In this document: positions 39,246 to 44,276 of the stretch, piece by piece | How positions within the stretch are numbered: the stretch's first letter is position 1 | How the letters are laid out: each line of letters opens with the position of its first letter | NCBI GenBank assembly: GCA_945900455.1 | Contig: CAMDJH010000009.1 | Span: forward strand, 1 to 48,647 | DNA: 48,647 nt | Direction: 5' to 3' | From: Akkermansia muciniphila | GTDB taxonomy: Bacteria > Verrucomicrobiota > Verrucomicrobiia > Limisphaerales > UBA9464 | Made by a program: the position numbers and the translations under genes | The notes under the pieces: model-generated | The model's input: only the letters and a program-made list of their open reading frames with translations | What the model was told of the DNA's origin: nothing | Database searches by the model: none

Positions 39246-40328
39246 CTATACACTCTCAAACTTCGAGCGGATCGCCCGGGCAATGTTCAAAAACGCTTCG
39301 GCAGGAGGCGAATCCGCGGCCGAGACCACAATGGGAACCCCGCGGTCTCCCCCTTCCCGGATGGCTGTAAATAACGGAACTTCGCCTAGGAACGGAATAC
39401 CCTTCCGGGTGGCTTCAACTCGGCCGCCCCCATGTCCAAAGATCTCATGGCGGGAGCCGTCCGGGGCGATGAAGTAACTCATATTTTCCACCAATCCGAT
39501 GAGCGGAACATTCACTTTCTCGAACATCGCGATGCCCTTGCGGACCACTCCGAGCGAGGCTTCTTGCGGTGTGGTGACGATAACGCCGCCGTCGATCGGA
39601 ACCGTCTGGCAGAGAGACAATTGGGCGTCGCCCGTGCCAGGCGGCAAATCGACCACAAGATAATCCAGCGTTCCCCAGTCCACTTGATGAATGAACTGAT
39701 GAATCGTCTTCTGGATCATTGGCCCACGCCAAATCACCGGTTGTTCGTCGTTCAAGAGGAACCCCATGCTCATGAGCTTCACGCCATGGGCCACCGGCGG
39801 AATCAACTTGTCCGCATCACTCAGCATCGGTTTCTGATGAAACCCCATCATCAAGGGGATGCTCGGACCATAGATGTCGCAATCGAGTAACCCAACCGTC
39901 GCGCCCAGTTGACGCAGTCCACAGGCCAAATTTGCCGAGCAAGTAGACTTGCCGACACCCCCCTTTCCTGAAGCCACGGCGATAATCCGGCGAATCCCGG
40001 GAATCCGGTTCCGCTGCGCAACTCCCCCCGGCGCGGCCGCCGCGACCTGCGCGCTCGGAACCTGCACCTGAATGTGGGCGTCCGTAAGGCCGGGAATCTG
40101 TTCCCGGAGCGCCAAACGCGCCGCATCCGCGATCTGGTCGCCGATGCCGGGCTGATTGCCTGTCAGTTCAATCAATACACCGACCGCCGAGCCATCGATC
40201 TGAATCCCTTTGATGAGACCAAAGGAAACAATGTCCCGGCTATAGCCAGGGTACTTGACGGTGCGGAGAACGGCGAGGACATCGTCCTGGGTCAAAGTTT
40301 TCACGAGGGCGGAAATTGAGACAACCAT
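39246..40328 (-). CDS. mrp: Mrp/ApbC-type Fe-S cluster carrier ATPase
   Basis: The 360-residue protein has an N-terminal MIP18/DUF59 domain (1-95) and a P-loop ATPase of the Mrp/NBP35 family: deviant Walker A GKGGVGKST, DCDIYGPSIP, and YLVVDLPPGTGDAQLS. Such proteins hold and deliver Fe-S clusters. The usual CxxC near the C-terminus reads NMSYFIAPDGSRHEIFG, without cysteines, as in some other phyla, so cluster binding may differ. It lies 51 bp after the iscS-like gene and probably belongs to the isc operon. Confidence 0.92.
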   Translation of the reverse strand: MVVSISALVKTLTQDDVLAVLRTVKYPGYSRDIVSFGLIKGIQIDGSAVGVLIELTGNQPGIGDQIADAARLALREQIPGLTDAHIQVQVPSAQVAAAAPGGVAQRNRIPGIRRIIAVASGKGGVGKSTCSANLACGLRQLGATVGLLDCDIYGPSIPLMMGFHQKPMLSDADKLIPPVAHGVKLMSMGFLLNDEQPVIWRGPMIQKTIHQFIHQVDWGTLDYLVVDLPPGTGDAQLSLCQTVPIDGGVIVTTPQEASLGVVRKGIAMFEKVNVPLIGLVENMSYFIAPDGSRHEIFGHGGGRVEATRKGIPFLGEVPLFTAIREGGDRGVPIVVSAADSPPAEAFLNIARAIRSKFESV

Positions 40329-40379: not shown

Positions 40380-41672
40380 TCAGTGAGCCGATTTGCCGGA
40401 TACCAACGCCGCGTGATCCGAAAACGACTTCCCGCGGCCCGTCGGCGCAATGACGGAATCAATGACCCCGCGCTCGAATTCATCCCACATGGGGGACATT
40501 CCGCGAAGTTTCGTGACGATCCGCGCAAATGATTCAATGACGTAATCGACATCCGCGTCGGTGTTATCTTTGCCGAGCGTCATGATGATATTACCCTGGG
40601 CAAGAGCATGATCCAGACCGATCGCAGCAAGGACGTGCGAAATTTTGAGGGACTTGCTGACGCAACTGGAACCGCTCGCCACGGCAATACCGTTGAGGTC
40701 ACACAGTAGCAACTGGCCTTCACCCTCGATAAATTCCGTGGAAAGGTTGAGATTCAGCGGCGATCGATTGGAGCCCGGAGCCGGGCCGTTGAACTTCAGA
40801 TATGGGATCGTCTGCTTGAGACCATCCCAAAGACGCTTTTGCAGCCGTGCGCAATGAGCGGTGCGGCTCGCCATCTCGCGCTGGGCAATATCCGCAGCCT
40901 TTCCTCCCCCCACAATGGCAGGGACGTTTTCCGTGCCCGCACGTCGCCCCCCTTCCTGCACCCCCCCGTGGAGAATGCTAACGATGCGCGCTTTCTTGTT
41001 CCGGTAAAGCACGCCGACCCCCTTGGGTCCATAGAACCGATGGGGTGAAAAAGAAATGAGGGCCGCGCCAAAGTCCTTCACGTTCACCGGAAGCCAGCCC
41101 GCGCTCGCTTCGCAATCGACGTAGAACGGAACTCCCTTCTCGGCACAGATCCGGCCGATATCCGCGATCGGTTGGATCGTTCCGATGTCGTGGTTCACGT
41201 GATGAACCGCCACCAAAACCGTTTGGCCGGTTATCGCCATCGCAACATCCGCCGCCCGGATCAATCCTTCGGGATCCACCGGCACCTTTGTGCAGGTCCA
41301 ACCCTGCTTCTCCAGAAACTCGACCGAGTTCAACACACTCGGATGTTCGGTGGCGGAAAGTACAATATGTTTGCCGCGCCGCTCGTTGGCGTAGGCCACG
41401 CCCTTTATCGCCAGATTCGAAGACTCCGTGCCGTCACTGGTAAAAAAAATCTCGTCCTCACTCTCCGCTCCGATCAGGGCCGCCATCTGCTGCCGGGCGG
41501 TCTTCATCGCCTCGCGCACCCGCAGGCCCTGCTGATGCAAGGAGGACGGATTGCCAAATACCTCCGTGAAATAAGGGCGCATTGCCTCGAAGACCTCAGG
41601 CAGGACGGGGGTGCTAGATTGATGATCGAGGAAAACGGAGCGCATCAGAGTGATGATCGAATCAGAACTCAT
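40380..41672 (-). CDS. iscS: IscS/NifS-family protein with PLP-lysine replaced by Arg
   Basis: The 430-residue protein is aligned by eye with cysteine desulfurase: DHQSSTPVLPEVFEAM, FTSDGTESSNLAIKG, SATEHPSVLNS (H110), VDCEASAG and the cysteine loop GSSCVSKSLKISHVL. At the PLP site the usual HK reads SPHRFYGPKG, so R212 stands where the Schiff-base lysine belongs, and the Gln of the DAxQ motif is Ala (A189). The codon is CGG, not one base from Lys by a trivial error. The catalytic Cys is kept. A C-terminal tail of about 40 residues is extra. ATG 41645 is an alternative start. Order in the operon: iscR, iscU, this gene, mrp. Confidence 0.9.
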   Translation of the reverse strand: MSSDSIITLMRSVFLDHQSSTPVLPEVFEAMRPYFTEVFGNPSSLHQQGLRVREAMKTARQQMAALIGAESEDEIFFTSDGTESSNLAIKGVAYANERRGKHIVLSATEHPSVLNSVEFLEKQGWTCTKVPVDPEGLIRAADVAMAITGQTVLVAVHHVNHDIGTIQPIADIGRICAEKGVPFYVDCEASAGWLPVNVKDFGAALISFSPHRFYGPKGVGVLYRNKKARIVSILHGGVQEGGRRAGTENVPAIVGGGKAADIAQREMASRTAHCARLQKRLWDGLKQTIPYLKFNGPAPGSNRSPLNLNLSTEFIEGEGQLLLCDLNGIAVASGSSCVSKSLKISHVLAAIGLDHALAQGNIIMTLGKDNTDADVDYVIESFARIVTKLRGMSPMWDEFERGVIDSVIAPTGRGKSFSDHAALVSGKSAH

Positions 41673-41699: not shown

Positions 41700-42143
41700 T
41701 TAGGTGGCGTGGGCAACCTGTGCGACCGGAGCGGCTTTCGTAGCCTGGGTGGCTTTTTCTGGATGTCTCTTGACATAGTCCTCGAGGGCCGCCTTGAGGG
41801 CTTCTTCGGCCAAAACCGAGCAATGTATCTTTACGGGTGGCAGCCCGCCCAACGCGTCCACGACCTCCTGGTTCGAAAAATTCATCGCTTCGTCAATACT
41901 GCGGCCCTTGATCAACTCCGTGGCCATGCTGGAACTGGCAATGGCCGAGCCGCACCCAAAGGTCTTAAACCGAGCGTCCTCGATGCGCCCATCTTTGATC
42001 TTCAGGCTGATCTTCATGATGTCACCGCAGGCGGCCGCGCCCACTTCACCCACACCATCCGCGTCCCGGATGTCGCCCATGTTGCGGGGGTTCATGAAGT
42101 GGTCCATCACAGTCGAATTATAGAGGGTGTAGGTATCGCTCAT
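41700..42143 (-). CDS. iscU: IscU/NifU-N Fe-S scaffold protein
   Basis: The 147-residue protein has the three scaffold cysteines in AACGD, FKTFGCGSA and KIHCSVLA, with the Asp after the first Cys, and the start STVMDHFMNPRNMGDI. It assembles a 2Fe-2S or 4Fe-4S cluster with sulfur from a desulfurase. The C-terminal 20 residues are Ala/Thr-rich and not conserved. It lies between iscR (90 bp upstream) and the iscS-like gene (27 bp downstream). Confidence 0.95.
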   Translation of the reverse strand: MSDTYTLYNSTVMDHFMNPRNMGDIRDADGVGEVGAAACGDIMKISLKIKDGRIEDARFKTFGCGSAIASSSMATELIKGRSIDEAMNFSNQEVVDALGGLPPVKIHCSVLAEEALKAALEDYVKRHPEKATQATKAAPVAQVAHAT

Positions 42144-42233: not shown

Positions 42234-42710
42234 TTAGCGGGCGGCGTGTTCCAAAGCGATGCGGTTCCCTTCCCGAAGGCGGGCGCTCTTGATCAATCCA
42301 CCGGGCAGATGCCGCCCGGAAAGCGCTGCCACCGTGGTACTGGCGAAGACTTGCTTTACCCGGTCCTGCGCCTCCGCAAATAAGCTGCACAGTGCGCATC
42401 CCGCAGCGTGTTCACAGTCGGGTTCTTCTTCCAGGCACCGCTGGAAAGTGATCGGCCCTTCGATCGATTCGATAACCTCGAGCACCGTGATCTCCGTTGC
42501 CGGTCGATTGAGGCAGAACCCGCCTCCCGAGCCCCGCGCCGACCGCACCAGCCCGGTCCGAGCTAAATTTTGGAAAATCTTTCCCAGAAAACTCACCGGA
42601 ACATCCTCCTCCCGGCTAATGACGTCCAGCATCACCACCTCGCCCAATGGGCGGCGCGCCAGGGCCAGCAACCCCAACATTCCATATTCTCCAGCGCGGG
42701 TAATTTGCAT
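42234..42710 (-). CDS. iscR: Rrf2-family regulator, IscR-like
   Basis: I chose the ATG at 42710, giving 158 residues that begin MQITRAGEYGMLGLL, as usual for Rrf2 proteins. The winged helix is followed by the cluster-binding cysteines RCLEEEPDCEHAAGCALC, with spacing C-x7-C-x5-C-x2-C close to IscR. It should sense Fe-S status and repress the isc operon that it heads. A palindrome lies between the predicted -10 box and the start codon, a good candidate for its own operator. Confidence 0.93.
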   Translation of the reverse strand: MQITRAGEYGMLGLLALARRPLGEVVMLDVISREEDVPVSFLGKIFQNLARTGLVRSARGSGGGFCLNRPATEITVLEVIESIEGPITFQRCLEEEPDCEHAAGCALCSLFAEAQDRVKQVFASTTVAALSGRHLPGGLIKSARLREGNRIALEHAAR

Positions 42711-42797: not shown

Positions 42798-44276
42798 TCA
42801 CTCTTCGCGCACGCGATAAAACTGGACCGTCTCTCCGGGACCCATTGTGTCCCGCACAAGCGAGCCTCCGGCAACCGCCAGGTTCGTTGAGATGCTCTGC
42901 CAGATCTTCAGTTCGCTCGAAACTTCCAGCACGCACGTATGACCCGCGTGGCCGTGCACCCGCACCCACCGTGCGCCGTCCTGATATCCTTCCAACCGGA
43001 CCAAGGGGAGCGTGTCGTTGGATAACAGAAAATTCGCGCTCACATAATCGCCGATGCGTTGGCCCGTGGCTTTGCCCTGCACATTGTCGAACATGAAATG
43101 GAATCCACCGTAAATACGGCTCATGCCCACCTCGTTCACACAGGCCGACAGACTGTCGAACTTACGGAACACTCCGGGCAGCGAATCGGATGATGCCGTG
43201 AATGAAATTGCGTCGGTTCCATAAAAATGGGTGAGAACCTGCCCGCTGGCCTTGCTAAAGGTGCTGTGGCCGCTGGTGTAGCCCGGAAACGGCGGAGACG
43301 GGAGATCTTGCTCCCAATTCGGATCCGCCTCGGTCAGCGGATTGTTGTCGGCCACCGCCTGCTGGATCGCGGTCACCGGCCGCCAAAAATTATACCGATA
43401 CTTGATCTCCCAGCACACAATCGCACCGTCCGCCTGCGCCAGGCCGATCAAGGCAAAGAGCCGGGCGTTCTCCGCGAGTGAATTGTTCCGATCCCGGGCA
43501 ATGGTGGCGGCAATTCTGTCCCAATGACCGGGAGGCATGGATGTGTAACTGAAATCCGACCAAAAAACGGCAATCTGGCTCTGTTCGAGGGTACGAACCG
43601 AGCTGGTCTTGCTCCCAATCGCCTTCACCTGATTGAAGGCCTCGGCGTATTCGGGACTGTCAAGAGCGGGCGGTGGCGGTGGAAGAAACGATTCGAGGTC
43701 CGGCAAGCAAAACGGGGTAACGTAACGCCACTGGGGCGTCAGCGGTGGACGAAAGAAGGGCGGCGTACGGCGCCACTGGCCCGGCGCGTCGCTCGGAATA
43801 TAAGGCACGTCCGTCTGAGACCCATCCGCCTCACGACTTTCGATCGTCTGCTGGGCAACTTGGATTCCGAGGGTCACGCCGTTCGTCAAAGATTCGCTGG
43901 ACCCCGTGCCAGCGACATAGGTCGAAAATAAATCGTCCGCGGGTGCGCCGAACGAAGGATACAGCGTCTTCATCACCACGTGGGCAGCCCCGACCGCCGC
44001 GGCCTCGGGCGAGGTGCCCGGTGGGGAGCTGAGTTGCCACCGATACGGCTGGTGCGTACGAAGCACCGAATTCACCGCGTCGTACATGGCGGTGTGGAGG
44101 ATTGCGAGGTTACGTGAGCTCAGAGTTGGGCCACTGTTATCGACGCGGATGGCATCGATCATCAGTGCATTCCAGTCAAGAATCGCGTCGGCATCCAACC
44201 TCGCTGCGACGAGATGCATCATCGCTGCCAGGACTGCCACCAACCCAAAACACCTGCCCTTGTAAGACGTTTTCAC
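42798..44276 (-). CDS. Vanadium haloperoxidase-like PAP2 protein, secreted
   Basis: The 492-residue protein (GTG start) has a signal peptide (about 1-27) and the vanadate/phosphate site of the PAP2/vanadium chloroperoxidase superfamily: K-x6-R-P in KYRYNFWRPVTAI, TSGHS in FPGYTSGHSTF, and S-R-x5-H-x3-D in MSRIYGGFHFMFDN. The last 70 residues form a beta segment ending QFYRVREE, like C-terminal domains frequent on verrucomicrobial secreted proteins. It may be a haloperoxidase or a phosphatase; sequence alone does not decide. The stop is 25 bp from the isc promoter. Confidence 0.9.
   Translation of the reverse strand: MKTSYKGRCFGLVAVLAAMMHLVAARLDADAILDWNALMIDAIRVDNSGPTLSSRNLAILHTAMYDAVNSVLRTHQPYRWQLSSPPGTSPEAAAVGAAHVVMKTLYPSFGAPADDLFSTYVAGTGSSESLTNGVTLGIQVAQQTIESREADGSQTDVPYIPSDAPGQWRRTPPFFRPPLTPQWRYVTPFCLPDLESFLPPPPPALDSPEYAEAFNQVKAIGSKTSSVRTLEQSQIAVFWSDFSYTSMPPGHWDRIAATIARDRNNSLAENARLFALIGLAQADGAIVCWEIKYRYNFWRPVTAIQQAVADNNPLTEADPNWEQDLPSPPFPGYTSGHSTFSKASGQVLTHFYGTDAISFTASSDSLPGVFRKFDSLSACVNEVGMSRIYGGFHFMFDNVQGKATGQRIGDYVSANFLLSNDTLPLVRLEGYQDGARWVRVHGHAGHTCVLEVSSELKIWQSISTNLAVAGGSLVRDTMGPGETVQFYRVREE

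Follow-up and report, generated by a model that had tools for sequence, protein, structure and literature searches.

A family of IscS-like proteins, mostly without the Schiff-base lysine and in part encoded beside IscU, in Verrucomicrobiota

The window analysed here, the whole of a 48,647-nucleotide stretch (contig CAMDJH010000009.1 of assembly GCA_945900455.1, Akkermansia muciniphila), carries on its minus strand a gene for an IscS-like protein in which arginine stands in place of the lysine that forms the Schiff base with pyridoxal phosphate (PLP) in cysteine desulfurases. The loss of this lysine and of three further active-site residues is fixed in a verrucomicrobial clade under purifying selection, the cysteine of the mobile loop is invariant, the adjoining IscU scaffold is intact, and lysine-bearing homologues are encoded elsewhere in the genome. 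The explanation that we favour, with roughly even confidence, is that the protein would be a desulfurase-dead, IscS-type partner of IscU, in which Cys337 takes up persulfide made elsewhere and presents it to the scaffold. The features of the gene are listed below, with residue equivalences from alignment to Escherichia coli IscS (reference taken from NC_000913.3).

40380..41672, minus strand: IscS-like protein without the Schiff-base lysine, open reading frame (ORF) of 430 amino acids
41037..41039, minus strand: Arg212, encoded by CGG, aligned with E. coli Lys206
41190..41192, minus strand: His161, aligned with E. coli Asn155
41106..41108, minus strand: Ala189, aligned with E. coli Gln183
40584..40586, minus strand: Ile363, aligned with E. 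coli Arg354
40662..40664, minus strand: Cys337, the mobile-loop cysteine (E. coli Cys328), present in 131 of 131 family members
40383..40466, minus strand: C-terminal tail, residues 403-430, found mainly in members with IscU at the locus

Four active-site residues are replaced in an intact fold

A reading made earlier from the sequence alone (the sequence-only reading) had placed an arginine (CGG) at the Schiff-base lysine and an alanine at the PLP-stacking glutamine, with the cysteine loop and the rest of the fold kept. The alignment bore this out: residues 209-218 read SPHRFYGPKG, with the CGG codon at residue 212 two base changes away from a lysine codon, and Ala189 and Cys337 fall where stated above. 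The fold-type I aminotransferase class V domain (Aminotran_5, PF00266) was matched at 1.8e-65 in Pfam, and IscS and NFS1 were among the structural matches. The replacements of Asn155 and Arg354 go beyond that reading; in the E. coli enzyme we take Asn155 to hold the PLP ring and Arg354 the substrate carboxylate. Thus, of the features of a type I desulfurase, the domain and the loop cysteine are present and the equivalents of Lys206, Asn155, Gln183 and Arg354 are absent. In the excerpted text of PMC9978102, K206A and Q183E abolish the activity of E. coli IscS and R354K retains it, isoleucine at 354 being outside those tests.

The source databases label the family members cysteine desulfurase, and mostly start the protein at Met10, giving 421 amino acids. 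It missed the NCBIfam equivalog cut-offs for both NifS (423.2 against 530.75) and IscS (370.2 against 643.2), but these misses weigh little because a lysine-bearing homologue of the same genome misses all of the cut-offs too. Identity to the NifS of the same genome is about 41%.

A sequencing error at about positions 41036-41039, which would have undone the observation, was excluded because arginine recurs in related loci in five different codons. In 145 such loci the residue-212 site was arginine in 135 (CGG 46, CGC 40, CGT 36, CGA 12 and AGG 1), lysine in 7, and histidine, glycine and glutamine in one each; these counts, like those for 199 sequences below, include near-copies, and some genomes present in two collections are counted twice.

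Substitutions at the same places were also seen in a series of closely related desulfurase chains in the PDB (9wep, 9wer, 9wew, 9wf8, 9wfb, 9wfe and 9wfy) that look engineered; one chain has leucine at the Schiff-base lysine and two have valine at the place of Arg354.

The losses are fixed in a verrucomicrobial clade

A scan of GTDB contigs with six peptide patterns gave 80 related loci of 61-96% identity, 77 of them with titles in Verrucomicrobiota. One pattern (VHHVNHDI) spans His161, so histidine at position 155 (E. coli numbering, as throughout for these columns) is over-favoured among these loci; the protein searches and the whole-genome search were run without a pattern containing His161. 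The first protein search added, among the matches listed, 119 further relatives besides the window's own protein. In the 199 relatives together, position 206 was arginine in 196, lysine in 2 (L071 and L086) and histidine in 1 (L089), position 155 was histidine in 198, position 183 alanine in 186 and position 354 isoleucine in 198 with one gap, and Cys328, His104, Asp180 and His205 were kept in all 199. Three sequences named as Betaproteobacteria (L081), Bacteroidetes (L085) and Limnocylindria (P0010) were taken as misplaced bins.

A search of 116 genomes of the host's order, which are samples of the lineage, extended the family to members of about 38-40% identity, with a member recognised by motif in at least 62 of the 116. 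From 270 family sequences, including the window protein, a non-redundant set of 131 members was drawn at 90% identity, sequences with fewer than 360 aligned residues being dropped. Position 206 was arginine in 122 and lysine in 5 of these; Asn155 and Gln183 were retained in none, and Arg354 in 3. A second protein search, seeded with distant members, gave 120 further proteins among the matches listed (arginine in 115, lysine in 5, the loop cysteine in all 120), and none of the 120 had Asn155 together with Lys206.

Family and canonical sequences were separated by motifs observed in the aligned rows, so that the presence of lysine in 30 of 30 canonical sequences is partly a matter of definition. 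An independent check on this split was provided by a tree in which 61 rows represented the family and 32 the canonical sequences, with the four trait columns omitted. Although built by a quick method, unrooted and with many weak inner forks, the tree put the family on one side of a single branch with a Shimodaira-Hasegawa-like approximate likelihood ratio (SH-aLRT) of 100, that is, as one clade, in Verrucomicrobiota; the question whether the HR variant forms a clade, which the sequence-only reading had left for checking, is answered by this branch. Inside the family, lysine arises in four places (L071, L086, L137-L139 and L167), in no case together with Asn155, Gln183 or Arg354; histidine arises once, and the loop cysteine is constant throughout. 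Such drift between arginine and lysine at position 206 would not be expected of a residue needed for a Schiff base, but may fit one that provides a positive charge.

More degenerate homologues were seen in other families of the same class (L098, L099, L100, L118 and L192, from genomes G008, G078, G265, G072 and G042). In these the HK motif reads YR, HR, FR or NQ, the PLP cup is partly gone and the loop cysteine is present; IscU was not found within the fetched stretches around them.

The pocket has changed under purifying selection

In the canonical sequences, 74 columns are invariant in 30 or more of 31; the family retains 41 of these columns in 90% or more of its members and 18 in fewer than 20%, the latter including Lys206, Asn155, Gln183, Arg354, Glu156, Thr12, His178, Thr179 and Lys187. 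Several replaced columns have a preferred new residue in the 131 members (Lys187 to Trp in 127, Arg274 to Gln in 127, Met151 to His in 112), and the residues conserved specifically in the family are, in window numbering, Trp193 (127), Gln278 (127), Arg212 (122), His161 (114) and His157 (112). From their place in cofactor motifs, we infer that these new residues line the pocket. Much of the PLP cup is also kept (again in E. coli numbering): Asp180 in 130, His104 in 127, Thr76 in 122, His205 in 120, and Ser203 and Thr243 in 113 each. The ratio of non-synonymous to synonymous change (dN/dS) was 0.05-0.10 across seven comparisons, of which four have a dS above 2 or nearly so and give only rough values; the two with unsaturated dS, L013 and L014, gave 0.067 and 0.055. 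By this measure the family is under purifying selection, and the change in the active site looks like a rebuild rather than decay. A pseudogene is ruled out by these ratios, the size of the non-redundant family and the conserved gene order.

The genome encodes lysine-bearing homologues elsewhere

The sequence-only reading had offered as one option that the real desulfurase is elsewhere, and the genome, which is 90% complete, supports it with three lysine-bearing homologues. NifS lies on contig C101 beside a sulfite reductase gene and passes its NCBIfam cut-off (571.9 against 530.75). SufS on C235 also passes (568 against 475.1), and the SUF operon to which it belongs further encodes SufB, SufU, a rhodanese and a NifU-like protein. 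The third, an IscS-like protein on C71, passes no NCBIfam cut-off. Of the 60 genomes of the order in which a member had been checked, 53 gave a match to NifS at E <= 1e-120, and the remaining 7 had another match, of 41-44%, located away from the member; all of these are matches by overall similarity.

The changed protein holds the place of IscS beside IscU

The gene stands third in a group with the order Rrf2 regulator, IscU, IscS-like gene, Mrp/ApbC.

42234..42710, minus strand: Rrf2-family regulator, first gene of the group (Pfam/NCBIfam)
41700..42143, minus strand: IscU scaffold, with cluster and IscS-contact residues kept (Pfam/NCBIfam, alignment)
39246..40328, minus strand: Mrp/ApbC P-loop protein, a likely iron-sulfur carrier, 51 bases downstream of the IscS-like gene

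The group had been described from the sequence as an otherwise normal isc operon. This holds for the linkage of Rrf2 and IscU and does not hold for iscA, hscB, hscA and fdx, which follow iscU in E. coli and are not among the neighbours here, the neighbourhood being where they were looked for. The order Rrf2-IscU-IscS-like was found in 60 of the 80 related loci, and IscU in 73. In the neighbouring IscU proteins Tyr3, Cys37, Asp39, Cys63, Lys103, His105 and Cys106 were retained in 92-94 of 94 sequences, and the window's IscU is the only proper one found in the genome, two other NifU_N proteins being located in the SUF operon. In other Verrucomicrobiota a lysine-bearing IscS adjoins IscU (for example L103, L106, L107, L110 and L120), and so the changed protein holds the IscS slot here.

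The region that contacts IscU, with contact residues as defined for E. coli IscS-IscU in excerpts of PMC2854127, is largely retained, E309-E311, R381 and W387 being present in 86 of 86 near members. The conserved C-terminal tail was found in 87 of 92 loci with IscU against 8 of 52 without, as counted from whole ORFs (2 of 146 that reach a contig edge were dropped) in loci that are relatives and not independent events; in the aligned rows used elsewhere, which are trimmed to the aligned stretch, C-terminal gaps carry no meaning.

The pairing with IscU does not extend to the whole family. To compare genomes, 60 with a motif-checked member were used, two more (G389 and G314) being left out. In 20 of them the member shares 70% or more identity with the window protein, and 19 of these encode an IscU of at least 82% identity, the other (G350) only a 19-residue fragment. 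The remaining 40 have more distant members (below 66% identity); a proper IscU was found in only 4, whose members are 56-60% identical, and the other 36 have at most SUF-type matches of 50% or less. The loop cysteine is nevertheless kept in 45 of 45 distant members, mostly in genomes without a proper IscU, so IscU does not account for the whole of its role.

The gene is followed downstream by Mrp in 61 of 97 near loci and in 17 of 49 distant ones; among the loci without it, flanks are short in 7 near and 6 distant ones. The window's Mrp reads ENMSYFIAPDGSRHEIFG where some Mrp proteins carry CxxC, and CxxC was seen in none of the 72 readable among 78 linked Mrp; cysteine-less Mrp variants exist in other bacteria too. 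At four loci (L017, L028, L043 and L053) a gene between the IscS-like gene and Mrp encodes an exported protein, some 335-350 residues long, which on visual inspection resembles a di-haem cytochrome c peroxidase. For Helicobacter pylori, excerpts of PMC8144621 describe a two-hybrid interaction of ApbC/Mrp with NifS in only some of the assays, and state that clusters did not assemble on ApbC when IscS was the donor.

With a score of 79.2, the Rrf2 protein falls short of the IscR cut-off (207.55). It has a cysteine-rich stretch, RCLEEEPDCEHAAGCALC, at what we take to be the place where IscR-type regulators bind their cluster. The group is flanked beyond Mrp by a protein without a Pfam match and beyond Rrf2 by a PAP2-superfamily protein (42798-44276; 28.3 bits against a cut-off of 27.2) that also matches vanadium chloroperoxidase weakly.

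Discussion

In the explanation favoured here, an IscS-like protein that would be unable to desulfurate cysteine binds IscU, presumably through the retained C-terminal helix and the lineage-specific tail. Persulfide would be supplied by the NifS, the SufS or the SUF-operon rhodanese of the cell, pass to Cys337 and from there to IscU, and Mrp may then pass the cluster onward. In the distant members the cysteine is likely to serve another acceptor; this is perhaps Mrp, a guess from gene linkage. A sulfur carrier without PLP catalysis was among the options of the sequence-only reading; it is the one that we rank first, and the invariant Cys337 fits it, the function itself being inferred.

Several points weigh against such a relay. 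More of the PLP cup is kept than a mere carrier should require. Desulfuration itself depends on Cys328 as well, so that the conservation of this cysteine is no specific mark of a relay. IscU cannot be the sole partner, because 36 of the 60 member-bearing genomes have no proper IscU, and the IscU contact Glu347 of E. coli is alanine in 84 of 86 near members. No dedicated sulfur donor was identified, and what the relay supposes of activity, binding and spectrum is drawn from sequence comparison.

A wider proposal, which we put forward tentatively and regard as doubtful, is that an entire bacterial lineage split iron-sulfur assembly from cysteine desulfuration: in the protein at the IscS slot beside IscU, the PLP pocket would have been rebuilt as a new conserved site with Trp193, His157, His161, Arg212 and Gln278, and a PLP-free relay of sulfur or of clusters through the loop cysteine would have outlived IscU in many of the descendants and now serve Mrp.

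A rather unlikely alternative is that the protein carries no sulfur and Cys337 binds transiently to the cluster while this forms on IscU, the sulfur being supplied as sulfide. Archaeoglobus fulgidus IscS, without the lysine, is described in parts of PMC7585200 and PMC9769115 as having no desulfurase activity and a cysteine that is a ligand to the IscU [2Fe-2S] cluster, and both the IscS-IscU pairing here and the tied-best structural match to that protein agree with this account. Against it, the cysteine is kept in all 45 distant members although 36 of the 40 genomes with such members have no proper IscU, and free sulfide would be less expected as a donor outside sulfidic anaerobes. The persulfide relay is ranked above it because even in the absence of IscU the family retains the cysteine without exception.

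It is also improbable that the pocket is a rebuilt PLP or pyridoxamine phosphate (PMP) site with new chemistry other than desulfuration, in which the cofactor or another phosphate ligand would be bound non-covalently, through the retained cup residues together with the newly conserved Arg212, His161, His157 and Trp193. The main argument for this is the retention of the cup, joined by the conservation of the new residues (Gln278 among them) and by a figure legend in PMC9769115, a source seen in excerpt, in which the lysine-less A. fulgidus structure is depicted with PLP. But the most distant rows lose residues of the cup too (His104 is Gln or Ser in 4 of 131 and His205 is replaced in 11) and keep the cysteine, and there is no known substrate.

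That the protein is still a cysteine desulfurase, through another lysine (K217, K340 or K343) or without a Schiff base, is very unlikely. K217, the substitute named in the sequence-only reading, is rejected because it is the lysine of GPKG and is carried by 30 of 30 canonical sequences as well. K340 and K343 are on the cysteine loop, family-specific and lysine in 114 and 112 of 131 members, but they are arginine in 12 and 14, which speaks against a Schiff base there, and Arg354, Asn155 and Gln183 are lost besides. Gene decay or an artefact, although several catalytic residues are lost, can be dismissed in view of the five arginine codons, the low dN/dS, the 131-member family and the conserved gene order.

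By their database name, the family proteins would be counted as the sulfur donor of IscU in pathway reconstruction; should they be inactive, IscU would have to receive its sulfur along a route that has yet to be described for these bacteria. With its invariant loop cysteine and its lysine given up, the family is a natural test of the roles of IscS besides desulfuration.

In open-licence PMC literature, searched by titles and abstract openings, no report of a lysine-less desulfurase in Verrucomicrobia was found among the matches listed; the comparable published cases found, A. fulgidus IscS and Methanosarcina acetivorans IscS1, are archaeal. A. fulgidus IscS (PDB 4hvk, 4eb5 and 4r5f) is the nearest precedent, as the lysine is replaced and IscU paired in both and its structural match is tied for best. 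It has Asp199 at the lysine's place, according to the title of 4r5f, and a D199K variant of it has been made, whereas the verrucomicrobial family mostly has arginine. Compared with the archaeal IscS by description and structure match rather than by sequence, the family also has Asn155, Gln183 and Arg354 replaced and a changed pocket, and unlike A. fulgidus IscS and M. acetivorans IscS1 it forms a bacterial clade with an Rrf2 gene and Mrp. The minimal iron-sulfur (MIS) system is alike in that MisS-MisU, as defined in excerpts of PMC12442378, pairs an IscS with an IscU in the absence of the other genes of the E. coli isc operon; that source places MisS among the type I desulfurases, whereas the window's S partner lacks the lysine and is linked to Rrf2 and Mrp. 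With E. coli IscS and verrucomicrobial NifS the family shares the fold, PF00266, the loop cysteine, much of the PLP cup and the IscU-contact helix, and it differs from both in the replacement of Lys206, Asn155, Gln183, Arg354 and 14 more canonical columns.
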